DNA of 64,000 nucleotides from an uncultured Bacteroidia bacterium (GCA_902774045.1 CACYGW010000001.1:1-64000), one strand, 5' to 3'. Counted from the first letter of the stretch, positions 29,287 to 34,978 are shown. Notes: generated by a model from the sequence alone, not told the origin. Translations and numbers: made by a program.

Positions 29287-29318
29287 TTTGCAATAATTGG
29301 AAGTATTTATTAAATTTG
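29287..29318 (+). promoter_or_regulatory. Promoter of the LytTR/FHA cluster
   Basis: TTTG at 29287-29290 and TAAATTTG at 29311-29318, with 20 nt between. The -7 box overlaps an upstream alternative start, so translation begins at ATG 29346. Confidence 0.75.
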
Positions 29319-29345
29319 CTTGCTGCTAGTGTAATACACCAGCCT

Positions 29346-29735
29346 ATGGAAAACTATTCATCTGAAAGCAGATACGTTTATTTCAACTCCAGAGATTCCC
29401 TTGTCAGAATAGACCTGACCAAGGTAGTATATTTCGAGGCCGATGGTAATTATACGTCGATAGTTTCCCTTATACCGGAATCCAAGGTTATAATACTCGC
29501 CAACCTGGGCAAAATAGAGAGGCTTCTGGCCCTGAGCGCCAAAGACCACAGCACCGTTTTCGTACGTATCGGCAAAAAATATATAATCAATTCAAAATAT
29601 ATTTTCTCCATCACGCCATTGCATCAGGAGATGGTGCTAAGCGATCAAAGCGGTTTCCATTACACTCTGGAGGCATCCAGGGAGGCCCTCAAGGCTCTTA
29701 AGGAAACCATGATGAACAAACTTAGAACAAAATAA
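29346..29735 (+). CDS. LytTR-domain DNA-binding protein
   Basis: A 129-residue protein consisting of one LytTR DNA-binding domain: YVYFNSRDSLVRIDLTKVVYFEADGNYT, then FVRIGKKYIINSKYIFSI. There is no receiver domain, so it is not a classic response regulator. It is the first gene of the FHA/PP2C/caspase cluster, 7 nt before the next gene, and is probably its transcription factor. The start is set by the promoter box that overlaps the longer frame. Confidence 0.85.
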   Translation: MENYSSESRYVYFNSRDSLVRIDLTKVVYFEADGNYTSIVSLIPESKVIILANLGKIERLLALSAKDHSTVFVRIGKKYIINSKYIFSITPLHQEMVLSDQSGFHYTLEASREALKALKETMMNKLRTK

Positions 29736-29742
29736 CAGAACT

Positions 29743-30450
29743 ATGATAGAACTAATTGTAGGAAGGGAAGAGGGGAAGGAGCAGCCCCGTCTGGCCGTAA
29801 CCAGCAGCGGAAAAACAAGTTACTTCGGAGAGCCGGGCTCGGTGCCCAAGGAGGTTAGCCGCAAGCACTGCCGTATCTTGCTGGAAGACGACCTGTCTTC
29901 GATGAGCATTACCGATATCACGGACAACAACTTTATGTACGTGAACGGCCAGGAGTGCAAGAGCAAGGGGCATCTTACCCTGGATTGCACGGTGGAACTA
30001 AGTCCGGTCCGTTATTCTCTGGACCTGGCCGCAATACTTAGGGTGTTCACCTCCGGTCAGGCCTTCCACATAGCGCATCTTTACCACATTTATCAGGGCT
30101 ATCATCAGGGAAAGATAGATTATCAGGTGAAGCAGAACCGGTTCAATGCCCTAAGCGCCATTCCCGGTGTGCTCAGTATGTCTTCCATAGGTCTGTCCTT
30201 TGCCATGAACGACCAGACCATAAGGATGGTAATGATAATTATCGCAGGACTCTTTGGTATTGTCTTCGCCATCATAAGAATTATGAACGCCGGCAAGGGC
30301 CCTAATTTCCTGCGTGCGATGGACGAGAGATTTCACGACGAGTACGTCTGTCCCAACCCGCTGTGCGGCAGGTTCCTGGGGTCCTGGCAGTACAAGGATT
30401 TAATCAAGGGAAAGGCTTGTCCGTTCTGCAAATCCAAGTACATAGAATAA
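29743..30450 (+). CDS. FHA-like domain, two TM segments and zinc ribbon
   Basis: A 235-residue protein. The N-terminal FHA-type domain (about 1-100) shows VSRKHCRI and the NNFMYVNGQE loop, which form the phospho-threonine site in canonical FHA. Two hydrophobic segments follow (about 141-158 and 164-185), then a C-terminal zinc ribbon with two pairs: CPNPLC and CPFC. This places a phosphopeptide reader at the inner face of the membrane. No family name is known to me. It is tightly linked to the LytTR gene; 104 nt separate it from the next gene. Confidence 0.75.
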   Translation: MIELIVGREEGKEQPRLAVTSSGKTSYFGEPGSVPKEVSRKHCRILLEDDLSSMSITDITDNNFMYVNGQECKSKGHLTLDCTVELSPVRYSLDLAAILRVFTSGQAFHIAHLYHIYQGYHQGKIDYQVKQNRFNALSAIPGVLSMSSIGLSFAMNDQTIRMVMIIIAGLFGIVFAIIRIMNAGKGPNFLRAMDERFHDEYVCPNPLCGRFLGSWQYKDLIKGKACPFCKSKYIE

Positions 30451-30554
30451 ACAATTGCCCCCGGAAAACGACATTTTGTCAATAAATCCCGGGGTTTTGT
30501 GGATTATATGCCAAATAGCTTTCACGGAAATAAAAATAAAACAAAATTTGCCAT

Positions 30555-31604
30555 ATGAAACGAATCACAACAACAATCATCTCGGCAGCCGCCGCTTTTT
30601 TAGCACTCGCCCCCGTGGCCGGCGCTCACGATTTTTCCAAGACACTTAAGGATGGAAACACCCTTTATTTTAATATTATCGATGCCGAATCCAAAACGGT
30701 AGAACTTACCTACGAAGGTAAGAGGTTCAACAAGCAGAACAATCACCCCAAAGGTGAAATCGTGGTCTCTGATTTTGTAACGCACGAAGGTGTAATTTAT
30801 AAAGTAGTTGCAATCTCTGACCGCGCTTTTTATGGTGCAGACAGTCTTGCAAAACTCACTCTTCCCAAGAACCTTGTAGAAATAGGAGACCTCGCATTTG
30901 CAAAATGCCCTCTTCTTACCACAGTGAATTTTGGTTCAAAGCAGATTGAGTTCGGCGACGATGTTTTCTACGGAACAGAGAACATAGAGGAGGTAACCTT
31001 CGAGAATGGATGGACCGCCCTTGACCTGAACCTCTTCAGCCAGCTTCTTGGCGTATCGGAAATCAACGTTCCCGCCTCTGTAAGGAAAATCACAAACCTT
31101 AAGACCATGGGCAGCCTGGAGGCTATCAATGTAAGCGAAGAGAATACAGCCTTCAGTTCCGTAGACGGTCTTCTCTACTCAAAGGACAAAAAGACCCTTT
31201 ACGCCTGCCCCGTAAGCTACAAGGATTCCGTATATGTAGCAGAAGGAACGGAGAATATTCTTACCGGAGCCTTCAGGAACTGCGAGAACGTTTCGCTGGT
31301 AAGCCTTCCTGTAAGCATCAGACAATTCAACCTTAACGAGTTTGAAAATCTTCCGTTCCTTAAATCGCTTATAATCAACTCTGTAATCCCTCCTGTAACT
31401 GCAATTCAGGACGGCGAGCAGAAGTTTGCCCTGCGCCTTGGCAAAGAGGCTAAGGTTTATGTTCCGGACAATGCCCTTTCCGTATATCACAATGTTGTGG
31501 TTACAAAGGCCGGTGTTTATTCCTATCCTGGCTCAACGGCAGAGATGGAGTATGAGGCCGATGGTTTCGTGGGCAAGAAAGGTATAAAAGCAATAAAAAA
31601 GTAA
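30555..31604 (+). CDS. Secreted BspA-like leucine-rich repeat protein
   Basis: A 349-residue exported protein with a signal peptide (cleavage near AGA-H, residue 24) and LRR_5/BspA-type repeats: ISDRAFYGADSLAKLTLP, IGDLAFAKCPLLTTVNF, TGAFRNCENVSLVSLP, EFENLPFLKSLII. Such proteins are surface or periplasmic binding modules in Bacteroidota. It does not carry an evident C-terminal sorting domain. Its location between FHA genes suggests that it is part of the cluster; 7 nt separate it from the acidic mini-protein. Confidence 0.85.
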   Translation: MKRITTTIISAAAAFLALAPVAGAHDFSKTLKDGNTLYFNIIDAESKTVELTYEGKRFNKQNNHPKGEIVVSDFVTHEGVIYKVVAISDRAFYGADSLAKLTLPKNLVEIGDLAFAKCPLLTTVNFGSKQIEFGDDVFYGTENIEEVTFENGWTALDLNLFSQLLGVSEINVPASVRKITNLKTMGSLEAINVSEENTAFSSVDGLLYSKDKKTLYACPVSYKDSVYVAEGTENILTGAFRNCENVSLVSLPVSIRQFNLNEFENLPFLKSLIINSVIPPVTAIQDGEQKFALRLGKEAKVYVPDNALSVYHNVVVTKAGVYSYPGSTAEMEYEADGFVGKKGIKAIKK

Positions 31605-31611
31605 ACCAGTC

Positions 31612-31836
31612 ATGAACAACGAATTCGAAGACAACAACATAATCGTCCCGGAGGAGGAGATAGAGGTTATCGGGTACGGAGAAGACGTTTCTCTTGCAGA
31701 TGACCCGGAGGTGGTAACCGGAGTTACCGGTTTCGACGGCGAAGATGTTTTCGTGATGGAACTCGGCGATGACGGGATGTCGGACGACATCGACGGCATA
31801 GAGACCATAGAGCCTTCTGACGATTCGGTATTTTAA
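31612..31836 (+). CDS. Highly acidic 74-residue protein
   Basis: A 74-residue protein without signal peptide or cysteine. About a third of residues are Asp or Glu and there is no lysine or arginine that I can see. The sequence is repetitive in style (VPEEEIEVIGYGED, DGEDVFVMELGDDG). No family is recognised. An acidic cytosolic mini-protein in a phospho-signalling cluster could be a partner or inhibitor of a basic protein, but this is speculation. Located 7 nt after the LRR gene and 21 nt before the caspase gene. Confidence 0.7.
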   Translation: MNNEFEDNNIIVPEEEIEVIGYGEDVSLADDPEVVTGVTGFDGEDVFVMELGDDGMSDDIDGIETIEPSDDSVF

Positions 31837-31857
31837 CACTCAGCACCTTTTACTACC

Positions 31858-32583
31858 ATGAAAAAATTATTACTCGCAATAGCATTTATATTTACGGCCT
31901 GCTTTACGCTAAGTGCGCAGAAGATCTACATCGTGGCCGCAGGCGTCAGTGACTATCCCGGCACCGTAAACGATCTGGGACTTCCCGCAAACGATGCCCG
32001 TTCCATTTACAGCCTTTACCGCAAGTACGCAAATGCAGAAGGCGTTATCCTTCTTAACAACAAGGCAACCCGCAATAACATCATAACAAAGGCAAACAAT
32101 GTGTTCCAGAAGGCAGGACAGAACGACATAGTTATCTTCTTCTTCTCCGGACACGGAAACAGAGGCCGCTTCTATGCTTATGACGATGAACTTTTGTACG
32201 ACGACCTTCGCAAAGTTTTCTCTGCCTGCAAAGCCAATAACAAGATTATTTATGCCGATGCCTGCTATTCCGGCGACATGGCCCAGGGCGGAAGCCACGG
32301 ACGCAACGAAGACTTCAAGAACATAATGCTCTTCTTCTCTTCCCGCGCCAACGAGACATCCTTCGAGAACAGCAGCAACATGAAGAACGGATTCTTTACA
32401 GCCTGCCTTCTCAAAGCCATAAAGGGTGCAGCCGACAAGAATCACGACAGGAAGATTACGGCCAAGGAGTTGTTCAACTCCGTGAGCCCCGGTGTGGCAA
32501 GTCTTTCACAAAATCAGCAGCATCCTGTTATGTGGGGAAATTTTGACGACAATATGCCGGTGTTTGTTTGGAGGAAAAAGTAG
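31858..32583 (+). CDS. Secreted caspase-like peptidase (C14)
   Basis: A 241-residue protein with type I signal peptide (cleavage near LSA-Q, residue 20) and a complete caspase/metacaspase p20-like core. The histidine is H99 in FFFSGHGN and the cysteine C136 in ADACYSGD; GVSDYPG at 29-35 and the NDARSI strand precede them. Near the C-terminus is an EF-hand-like calcium loop, DKNHDRKITAKE. Specificity after Arg/Lys (metacaspase-like) or Asp cannot be settled. Unlike most bacterial caspases in defence systems, it is exported and has no fused sensor. Confidence 0.9.
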   Translation: MKKLLLAIAFIFTACFTLSAQKIYIVAAGVSDYPGTVNDLGLPANDARSIYSLYRKYANAEGVILLNNKATRNNIITKANNVFQKAGQNDIVIFFFSGHGNRGRFYAYDDELLYDDLRKVFSACKANNKIIYADACYSGDMAQGGSHGRNEDFKNIMLFFSSRANETSFENSSNMKNGFFTACLLKAIKGAADKNHDRKITAKELFNSVSPGVASLSQNQQHPVMWGNFDDNMPVFVWRKK

Positions 32584-32589
32584 AGAGAA

Positions 32590-33123
32590 ATGCCCGTTGA
32601 TCAGAAAATAAAAGTGCAATGTCCGCATTGCAAGGTGATTTTGGCAGTGCCCAGGACGCTTGAGGGACAGGATATTGTGTGCCCTAAGTGCAAAAAGGGT
32701 AGCTCTTTTGCAGAGTGCAAGCGTCTGTACGACGACACGATGGCTTCCGTAAACCGTACGGTACTGTCGTCGGGAGTCATAGACCGGCCGGGATTTTTGA
32801 GAGATATGTACTCCGGACAGAGTTATATGCTTCAGGAAGGGGAGAACATAATTGGAAGAATGACATACAGGGAGCCACCCAAGGCCACGGTGCCCATCGT
32901 TACCGGAGATATGGGATTTTCAAGGGCACATTTGATAATAAGAGTGGTCAAGGCCCCGGACGGATACTACCACGCATTCGCCTACAATGCTTCCAATATG
33001 AACCCTACAATGATAAATGGCGTAAGGCTGGAAGCAGAGGACCAGATAGGACTCAAGGACGGAGACATTATTCAGGCATCATCGACATATTTACAATATA
33101 TTAAACTTGCGCCGCAGGTATGA
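32590..33123 (+). CDS. Zinc ribbon plus FHA domain protein
   Basis: A 177-residue cytosolic protein. An N-terminal zinc ribbon has C11-x2-C14 and C31-x2-C34; the C-terminal FHA domain (about 80-177) has IIGRMT, the phosphopeptide-binding SRAHLII and NPTMINGVRL. FHA domains recognise phospho-threonine. It starts 6 nt after the caspase gene and overlaps PP2C by 4 nt (ATGA), so reader and phosphatase are probably made together. Confidence 0.88.
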   Translation: MPVDQKIKVQCPHCKVILAVPRTLEGQDIVCPKCKKGSSFAECKRLYDDTMASVNRTVLSSGVIDRPGFLRDMYSGQSYMLQEGENIIGRMTYREPPKATVPIVTGDMGFSRAHLIIRVVKAPDGYYHAFAYNASNMNPTMINGVRLEAEDQIGLKDGDIIQASSTYLQYIKLAPQV

Positions 33124-33863
33124 ACGTAAAAACAACATACACATTCATCCACGAGATTGGACAAAGAGCCAACCAGGAAGACAGCGTTTATCCGGATTCC
33201 GGAGTAGCCTCTGTTCCTGAGCTGTATCTTGTCTGCGACGGAATGGGTGGGCACGAAGGAGGAGAAATCGCCTCTGCCGCAGTATGCCGTGGGATAAGCT
33301 CATACATTGCATCCAACCAGAGCCCTGTCTTTACAACAGATTCCTTCAGGGAGGCCCTCTCTGCCGGGTACGACCTTCTGGATTCCGTAGATAACGGCGC
33401 AGACCAGAAAATGGGCACAACCCTTACGTTTGCCCGCTTCCATCAGGGAGGCTGCCTTGTGGCTCACATAGGTGACAGTAAAATATACCACGTACGTCCT
33501 TCGCAGCGCAGAATCCTGTATGTTTCCAGGGATCATTCCCTTGTAAACGACCTCATTCTCCTTGGAGAACTAACCCCCGAAGAGGCAAAGAGCTATCCCG
33601 GCAAGAACGTAATAACCAGGGCCATGATGCCCAATACGGAAAGAAGGGACAAGGCAGAGATAAGGGAGATTTCGGATGTACTCCCCGGAGACTATTTCTT
33701 CCTTTGCTCGGACGGCATAATGGAGAATCACTCGGACCAGGACATTCTGGACCTTTGCTGCCTTGGCGTAAGCGACCTTGAAAAAATGGAGGCCCTCAGG
33801 GACCATACTTCCTCCAACAAGGATAATCATACCGCAATGCTAATTAAGGTTTTATCGATATAA
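33120..33863 (+). CDS. PP2C-type Ser/Thr protein phosphatase
   Basis: A 247-residue soluble PPM/PP2C phosphatase with the metal-coordinating motifs RANQED (16-21), DGMGGHEGG (40-48), HIGDSKIY, LCSDGIMEN and the terminal DNHTAML. All catalytic aspartates appear present. It would reverse Ser/Thr phosphorylation read by the two FHA proteins. No protein kinase gene is in the cluster or window. It overlaps the upstream gene by 4 nt. Confidence 0.92.
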   Translation: MNVKTTYTFIHEIGQRANQEDSVYPDSGVASVPELYLVCDGMGGHEGGEIASAAVCRGISSYIASNQSPVFTTDSFREALSAGYDLLDSVDNGADQKMGTTLTFARFHQGGCLVAHIGDSKIYHVRPSQRRILYVSRDHSLVNDLILLGELTPEEAKSYPGKNVITRAMMPNTERRDKAEIREISDVLPGDYFFLCSDGIMENHSDQDILDLCCLGVSDLEKMEALRDHTSSNKDNHTAMLIKVLSI

Positions 33864-33893
33864 AAATATTAACCAATCAAATATCTTTTTATT

Positions 33894-34922
33894 ATGTACA
33901 TCGATCCTAACAACATTCCTGCTTCAGAAGGTACTCTCTATGTATCGCAGGATCAGAATTACGAGCAGCCCATTCAGGAGACTGTTCAGGAAGAATATGC
34001 AGAAGTTCCCGCCGCTCCCTTTGAGGCTCAGCCCCAGAAGGGTTCAGGCACCTGGAAGGGTGTTCTCATTGGCGGTATCCCCGGTATAGCACTTGGCGTA
34101 GGCGGTGCTTTCCTTGGCACAAGCCTTCTTGCAAAAGAGCACGATGAAGATGATCGTGAGCCCGGAGATGCAGAAATCTACGACACAGCTCCCGTGGCAG
34201 AATCCGTTACCGACGATATGTCCTTTGCAGAGGCCTTCGAGGCTGCACGCGAGGAAGTTGGTGCAGGCGGCGTATTCGTATGGCACGGCCAGGCTTATTC
34301 TACCTACACCCAGGAAGAGTGGGAATCCCTTACCCCCGAGCAGCAGGGCGAATATGTAGAAAGCCTTGTTAACTCCGGAGTTATCAGTGGCGGCGCTTCA
34401 GAGGAAACTGAGGTTGAGCCCGATGTAGACAACACAGACGATCCCAACGGCCTTGAAGGCGAAGAAAGCGACCTTGACAATGAGGGCGGCACTCAGGGCG
34501 GCACAACTGACGGTGAGCCCGCAGATGAACCCGGATATGAGACTGACGGCCCCGTAGGCGGTCCTACAGACGCCGAGGGTACTCACGGAATCGATGTCCT
34601 TGGCAGTGAAGTTGAGGTTCAGGAAGTTGGCTATTATCAGAACGAAGACGGTTCAGAGGGCGTCGCAGCCATCGGAACAGTTGACGGCCACTCTGCAGCC
34701 TTCCTCGATGTTGATGCCGACGGTGTTGTAGACCAGGTTCTTGTTGATACCGATGATGACGGTCATATCGCCCCGGAAGAGAACTTTGACCTCTCTGACA
34801 GCGGCCTTACCGTAGGAGACCTTGCAAATCAGGTAGACAACGGTGCAACCGATCCTTCTGACGAACTTTACGCCGGGGGAAGCGACTACACCAACGACGC
34901 AGATACAACTTCTCTTTGTTAA
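33894..34922 (+). CDS. Acidic single-TM protein with calcium-loop-like repeats
   Basis: A 342-residue protein without a cleavable signal. One TM segment lies at about 56-80, with positive residues before (QKGSGTWK) and KEHDEDDREPGD after, so the large C-terminal part is predicted outside. A conserved-looking module (SFAEAFEAAREEVGAGGVF, then WHGQAYSTYTQEEW, about 109-143) precedes a very acidic, Gly-rich linker and DVDADGVVDQ / DTDDDGHIAPEE, both of EF-hand/dockerin loop form. I recall similar AF-AAR-EVG-GG-F-WHG modules in other Bacteroidota hypothetical proteins, but know no function. Last gene of the cluster, followed by a terminator. Confidence 0.75.
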   Translation: MYIDPNNIPASEGTLYVSQDQNYEQPIQETVQEEYAEVPAAPFEAQPQKGSGTWKGVLIGGIPGIALGVGGAFLGTSLLAKEHDEDDREPGDAEIYDTAPVAESVTDDMSFAEAFEAAREEVGAGGVFVWHGQAYSTYTQEEWESLTPEQQGEYVESLVNSGVISGGASEETEVEPDVDNTDDPNGLEGEESDLDNEGGTQGGTTDGEPADEPGYETDGPVGGPTDAEGTHGIDVLGSEVEVQEVGYYQNEDGSEGVAAIGTVDGHSAAFLDVDADGVVDQVLVDTDDDGHIAPEENFDLSDSGLTVGDLANQVDNGATDPSDELYAGGSDYTNDADTTSLC

Positions 34923-34947
34923 GGGGAAGTATTTCTCCCTTTGTCCT

Positions 34948-34978
34948 GACGGTCCGGGCTCCGGGCCGTCTTATTTTT
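34948..34978 (+). terminator. Terminator of the FHA/PP2C/caspase cluster
   Basis: Stem GACGGTCCGG / CCGGGCCGTC (34948-34957, 34961-34970), one T-G pair, 3-nt loop and TTATTTTT tail. Confidence 0.85.

Follow-up and report, generated by a model that had tools for sequence, protein, structure and literature searches.

A predicted Ser/Thr phosphorylation module of Bacteroidales, with its matching kinase encoded about 79 kb away in one genome

How can a gene cluster encode readers and an eraser of phospho-threonine with no writer beside them? The question is raised by eight genes at positions 29,287 to 34,978 of a 64,000-nucleotide stretch (hereafter the window) from an uncultured Bacteroidia bacterium (GCA_902774045.1 CACYGW010000001.1:1-64000), a gut-type Bacteroidales. 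All eight open reading frames (ORFs) are on the plus strand and correctly read. The ORFs, Pfam and NCBIfam matches and isoelectric points (pI) bear out the inventory given by a first-pass annotation of the window: a LytTR DNA-binding protein, two proteins each joining an FHA domain to a zinc ribbon, a PP2C phosphatase, a caspase-like peptidase, a leucine-rich repeat (LRR) protein and two acidic proteins. That annotation described the set as a module without a kinase. Indeed, no Ser/Thr kinase gene was found in the cluster or elsewhere in the window. However, the nearest one, beginning at contig position 113,684, is of the type that accompanies these genes in related genomes. By its gene content, the cluster is one version of a predicted Bacteroidales-specific Ser/Thr phosphorylation module. 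A single window can thus mislead, as in the kinase-less rule, when one gene is located elsewhere.

A search of the genus with the zinc ribbon-FHA protein returned strong relatives in five other genomes (40-43% identity). The DNA around them carried this gene set in largely the same order, plus adjoining Ser/Thr kinase genes. Named genomes were then scanned with an alignment of the other FHA protein, which combines FHA, transmembrane (TM) helices and zinc ribbon. The 49 loci obtained all lie in Bacteroidales or Bacteroidia records. Many come from the rumen, and Prevotella, Butyricimonas, Parabacteroides, Muribaculaceae and Porphyromonadaceae are among the taxa represented. Gene content was determined by profile searches over all ORFs, and linkage was counted only in the 28 loci with at least 9 kb of downstream sequence. 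Linked genes encoded the acidic TM protein (26 loci), zinc ribbon-FHA protein (25), PP2C (24), kinase (24), LytTR protein (20), caspase (17) and BspA-type LRR protein (2). The order seen most often was LytTR, FHA-TM, acidic TM, caspase, zinc ribbon-FHA, PP2C, often one secreted protein, then kinase; the genus of the window differs in that its acidic TM gene usually lies 3' of the PP2C gene. The first-pass annotation had put forward the linkage of caspase, PP2C, FHA and acidic TM genes for comparison with other genomes; this linkage is conserved in Bacteroidales loci, and the linked kinase that the annotation suggested looking for was found. Its pairing of cytosolic phospho-threonine readers and eraser with exported proteins likewise belongs to the conserved module. 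The comparison shows joint inheritance of genes for the LytTR protein, FHA/TM/zinc ribbon protein, acidic TM protein, predicted exported caspase, zinc ribbon-FHA protein, PP2C and predicted membrane kinase.

The kinase at 113,684-115,528 lies on the same contig as the cluster, about 79 kb from it. Among the five Ser/Thr kinases of the genome, it is the only member of the module subfamily. It aligned over its full length (626 columns, 46% identity, E 2e-176) with the module kinase of genome G104, whose gene directly follows the acidic TM gene, and the two have in common a weak C-terminal Lcl_C-like domain. The four other kinases aligned with the G104 protein over the kinase core only, at 26-32% identity. 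In a tree of 65 kinases, the protein encoded at 113,684 fell inside a 58-row clade (support 100/98) otherwise made up of kinases from module loci and from the variant locus of genome G011, where PP2C is present with a different gene set. Its nearest neighbours within the clade were weakly supported, and the four other kinases of the genome fell outside.

The distribution of the subfamily follows that of the module. At E≤1e-60, the kinase was detected in 7 of 200 genus genomes: this one, five others with the module, and G011. The zinc ribbon-FHA protein, scored at E<1e-30, was present in six genomes, all within these seven (hypergeometric P 8e-11, or 2e-9 leaving out the window's genome). In the six other kinase genomes, every kinase match was on the module contig or, in G011, on the contig of the variant PP2C locus. 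Relatives carry one to four linked Ser/Thr kinases, within the genus all of one subfamily. The Hanks-type kinase expected of a kinase-PP2C-FHA relay is thus unlinked here, linked in 24 of the 28 loci and co-inherited across the 200 genomes. Together with the subfamily clade, these results rule out the absence of a kinase as a property of the system; what stands of the earlier claim is that none is encoded in the cluster or window. The simplest reading of the gene arrangement is that kinase and module became separated in this lineage.

Alternatively, the module kinase might have been lost here, leaving readers and eraser to be repurposed or to decay. The cluster does lack a kinase gene, and versions without linked kinase and PP2C occur in Prevotella (loci L101 and L103). 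Nevertheless, such a remnant seems to us very unlikely. The genome has retained a single module-type kinase, whose K/HxD/DFG motifs are intact (read from the sequence) and whose tail has an ExT motif, and every active-site residue encoded in the cluster is intact. Moreover, the subfamily is absent from module-free genus genomes except for the G011 variant.

The sensor part of the module kinase appears to vary widely. Pfam searches with five module kinases returned Lcl_C, Sel1, Big_2 and carboxypeptidase-regulatory-like domains, with no cold-shock or FHA domain. At L053 (480-2549, the same locus as L088), a module kinase carries a C-terminal ectodomain that looks FKBP-type by eye.

Both readers and the eraser retain the residues expected of working proteins. 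The membrane-bound reader (29743..30450; PF00498, 24.2 bits) has an FHA domain, two TM helices predicted by reading the sequence, and a C-terminal zinc ribbon. S39, R40 and H42 are kept in 44, 46 and 48 of 48 orthologues, respectively, and the four cysteines in 47 of 48. GarA and OdhI are among its relatives in the PDB, as weak matches. The soluble reader (32590..33123; PF00498, 27.1 bits) is a zinc ribbon-linker-FHA protein, in whose family the cysteines and R90/S111/R112/H114 are conserved; the nearest solved FHA domains are those of Mycobacterium tuberculosis TB39.8 (3po8/3oun) and a GGDEF protein (6hc0/6hc1). Each FHA protein carries a zinc ribbon with four conserved cysteines, and the phosphate-binding Ser/Arg/His are intact in both families. 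The PP2C phosphatase (33120..33863) matched PP2C_2 at 44.9 bits and NF033484 (Stp1-type PP2C) at 142.6 bits, the latter under that model's equivalog cut-off. All 44 sequences compared share D40/G41, D119, D198, D235 and further core residues, and the metal-binding aspartates D40, D198 and D235 are intact here.

A candidate substrate was suggested by an acidic-x-Thr-hydrophobic pattern common to three predicted cytosolic regions: the N-terminal tails of acidic TM proteins (MNEETIIEKRP, NNEETIVMG, VDESTIISH, SEGTLYV), the linkers of soluble FHA proteins (DDSTQIS, DDHTQVT, GATQLA repeats) and the juxtamembrane segments of kinases (EETTIVK, DETIVEI, VEGTVLP). We counted it as [DE]x?T[QIVL][LIVYF] and took the mean of residue-shuffled sequences as the expectation. 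Observed and expected sites numbered 42 and 1.2 in acidic TM tails, 14 and 1.1 in FHA linkers, and 39 and 4.7 in kinase juxtamembranes; these ratios are descriptive only, since the pattern was noticed before counting and the sequences are related. Kinase and acidic TM ectodomains, kinase domains, caspases and PP2C tails showed no excess, and proteins encoded by flanking genes were near background (179 vs 149). This genome's own matches are VEGTVLP in the kinase and SEGTLYV in the acidic TM protein. The pattern resembles peptides of OdhI and DgcB, whose FHA domains each bind a stretch of their own protein. In DgcB, this stretch is the tail around Thr14 (LEKpTSIV), and OdhI behaves likewise; in either peptide, Glu stands at -2 and hydrophobic residues occupy +2 and +3 (PMC6733907).

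The acidic single-pass membrane protein (33894..34922) consists of an N-terminal segment with SEGTLYV, a Gly-rich TM helix, a conserved ectodomain and D-rich repeats. Thr14 in the N-terminal tail and ectodomain residues are conserved across 25 orthologues. An AlphaFold2 model from these 25 sequences had a mean predicted local distance difference test score (pLDDT) of 61.6, the only confident parts being a helix/beta-hairpin/helix unit around residues 101-160 and a beta-rich stretch around 241-310. A Foldseek search with the ectodomain returned nothing from the PDB at E≤0.001, which is no proof of a new fold, since mostly disordered models search poorly. The caspase-like peptidase (C14 family; 31858..32583) matched PF00656 (Peptidase_C14) at 72.7 bits. 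All 29 orthologues retain His99 and Cys136, and nearly all of them have an N-terminal signal peptide as judged from sequence. A single-sequence search for relatives of solved structure gave none.

Altogether, these genes point to a kinase/PP2C/FHA relay that spans the membrane, in which an acidic single-pass protein would be the transducer and a periplasmic caspase the output or a regulator. We consider this reading probable. In such a relay, a single-pass kinase with a variable periplasmic domain would sense an envelope signal and phosphorylate the acidic-x-Thr-hydrophobic motif in its own juxtamembrane tail and in the cytosolic N-terminus of the acidic TM protein. In relatives, it would also phosphorylate the linker preceding the soluble FHA domain. 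Both FHA proteins would dock on the phosphorylated tails, assembling a membrane complex; like OdhI, GarA and DgcB, the soluble protein may also bind a segment of itself, here the linker. PP2C would reset the phosphorylated state. The acidic TM protein would transmit the signal through the membrane to its ectodomain, an acidic and possibly calcium-binding part that would meet the exported caspase. The latter might, as feedback, cleave this ectodomain or that of the kinase, or might be released or activated as an effector; our confidence in any precise role of the caspase is much below that in the relay as a whole. The stand-alone LytTR protein would set expression. More doubtful, and proposed here tentatively, is a Ser/Thr-kinase circuit that would control a caspase-like protease beyond the inner membrane through a new kind of acidic TM transducer. 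In gut Bacteroidales, phosphorylation would then govern proteolysis or cell death at the envelope. Envelope surveillance or contact response is a hypothesis for the role of the system.

Several points weigh against the relay. Its chemistry (phosphorylation, binding and proteolysis) and its biological role, with any phenotype, are predictions from genes, TM topology was deduced from charge and hydrophobicity, and the link between a cytosolic phospho-signal and a periplasmic caspase is a guess drawn from gene co-localisation. The caspase is missing from 11 of the 28 loci and may therefore be an add-on. L101 and L103 have no linked kinase, PP2C or caspase but retain LytTR, the two FHA proteins and the acidic TM protein, so that parts of the module may work apart. 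The window's own zinc ribbon-FHA linker has no strict motif match (it has YDDTMASV and NRTVL). Finally, linkage and motif counts are not independent among related species. Ser/Thr phospho-signalling is little studied in Bacteroidales, and the conserved set comprises a writer, an eraser, two readers, a predicted substrate motif and an exported caspase. Therefore, specific peptides and genes are directly testable.

The same proteins might instead serve a defence or abortive system, in which phage or contact damage would trigger the kinase and phospho-dependent assembly would free the caspase, leading to cell death or envelope remodelling. A sporadic distribution would suit such a role: the 7 of 200 genus genomes apart, a membrane FHA profile at E≤0.001 matched 43 of 393 genomes of the order, many of these being weak FHA-only matches. 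Neighbouring genes also differ between species. Here the flanking genes, named from their translations, are a divergent queH upstream and guaB downstream. In a module-free relative, G003, queH and guaB are adjacent, about 1.5 kb apart, with no trace of the module; from this single comparison, arrival of the module at the queH/guaB site in this lineage is plausible. An argument for recent transfer from GC content was dropped, the values for cluster (48.6%) and flanks (about 51%) being too close. Kinase-phosphatase antiphage modules are known (KKP; PMC11341870), and caspases act as effectors in conflict systems (PMC7159879). However, the caspase of the window is exported via a signal peptide, unlike the effector caspases of those systems, the loci without caspase argue against defence too, and no toxin or nuclease partner was identified. 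In favour of defence, PADLOC matched a caspase model and, with the kinase, the mads_6 and PD-T4-6 models, though both of these kinase matches may reflect mere general similarity among kinases; since only such generic matches were returned, a known defence family was rejected. We judge a defence role unlikely.

How the predicted relay compares with described systems was also considered. Membrane kinase, PP2C and FHA readers recall PknB/PstP-type signalling (M. tuberculosis TB39.8 and GarA, Corynebacterium glutamicum OdhI), and the module may work in this way. OdhI/GarA-type systems also have a motif in the tail preceding the FHA domain, and TB39.8 and GarA are relatives in FHA sequence. The FHA proteins of the module differ by their zinc ribbons, and to our knowledge PknB/PstP/FHA systems include no caspase, LytTR or acidic TM protein. 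The TerY-P triad consists of a vWA (TerY) protein, a PP2C and a kinase; no vWA match was found among the eight proteins of the cluster. Bdellovibrio DgcB is alike in FHA sequence (6hc0/6hc1) and in a Glu-x-Thr-x-hydrophobic tail motif, but its output is a GGDEF enzyme, and its kinase was not identified (PMC6733907). The kinase-kinase-PP2C antiphage module KKP also combines Ser/Thr kinases with PP2C and FHA, the PP2C gene being followed by those of one kinase with a cold-shock domain and one with an FHA domain to form a triplet, with no TM protein, caspase or LytTR (PMC11341870). It was excluded on the domain content of the five module kinases. In the two-gene EACC1-caspase systems, the caspase is encoded beside a protein with one Gly-rich TM helix, the EACC1-domain gene lying 5' of the caspase gene (PMC7159879), and the caspase of the window matched NF047832 ('caspase, EACC1-associated type') at 62.7 bits, below the cut-off of 140 bits. 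These systems are mainly actinobacterial. Unlike their caspases, that of the window is exported on its own signal peptide. As the acidic proteins gave no EACC1 match in Pfam or NCBIfam either, this assignment was also excluded. Literature searches, not covering preprints and most subscription papers, found no description of this composition, in agreement with the remark of the first-pass annotation that no named system of this kind was known to it. The module looks new as a combination made from known kinds of parts.

A last possibility is the regulation of a secretion machine, as in the type VI threonine phosphorylation pathway or with FHA/PP2C genes at ESX loci. The variant locus of G011 (L043, contig 4, 1363-14988) encodes an FtsK/SpoIIIE ATPase, two WXG100-like small proteins, a Sel1-FHA protein and three kinases of the module subfamily, together with the nearest relative of the window's PP2C, at 50% identity. 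This locus of a Bacteroidales metagenome-assembled genome has the appearance of an ESX/type VII-like core, and it joins the PP2C and kinase subfamilies to FtsK and WXG100-like proteins. Nevertheless, reading the module loci by eye, without a systematic scan, brought no WXG100, FtsK or type VI genes to light. Type VI/VII regulation is not supported for the module itself, and we regard it as highly improbable.

The LytTR gene heads the cluster (29346..29735; 129 amino acids without receiver domain; PF04397, 42.4 bits). LytTR is found in 32 of 45 FHA-anchored loci, normally immediately 5' of the FHA gene. Its promoter (29288..29318) is of Bacteroidetes type, TTG-N20-TAAATTTG, an exact match to TTG-N20-TAnnTTTG. 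Similar promoters precede orthologous LytTR genes in about a dozen loci, mostly 35-85 bp upstream. At the other end, an intrinsic terminator (34948..34978) is formed by a strong hairpin at 34948-34970 (10-bp stem, 8 GC pairs, -19 kcal/mol) followed by TTATTTTT. The promoter and terminator between which the first-pass annotation placed the eight genes are both present. However, the 104-bp gap between genes 2 and 3 (FHA-TM and BspA) contains a terminator-like hairpin, CCCCCGG...CCGGGG-TTTTG, at about 30457-30494 on the plus strand (-14 kcal/mol), so that a single transcript for all eight genes is not certain and the unit may be split there. A second promoter of the TTG-N20-TAnnTTTG type was searched for in this gap, and none was found.

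The BspA-type LRR gene that follows the gap (30555..31604; LRR_5, 83.8 bits; signal peptide seen in the sequence) is rare: besides 3 of the 45 FHA-anchored loci, the scan showed it in 2 others. Although first listed with the set, it is an accessory gene outside the predicted module core. The next gene (31612..31836) encodes an acidic protein of 74 amino acids; its pI, like that of the acidic TM protein, is about 4.05. It has positional counterparts in L092 and L094. Its origin as a cut-down paralogue of the acidic TM protein was not supported (hhalign probability 7.5%, no significant homology).

Two other loci of the same genome also combine kinases with FHA proteins. On contig 4 (L032, 8153-14477), a second, distinct phospho-signalling cluster encodes a zinc ribbon-FHA protein, a kinase-FHA protein, a kinase with a TM helix, a secreted MORN-type protein and a PP2C. 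Several Prevotella module loci (L114, L117, L119 and L122) encode, between PP2C and kinase, a secreted protein judged by eye to be similar. On contig 26 (L033, 992-4673), a third kinase lies beside an FHA protein with a possible trypsin-like part, as read from the sequence.

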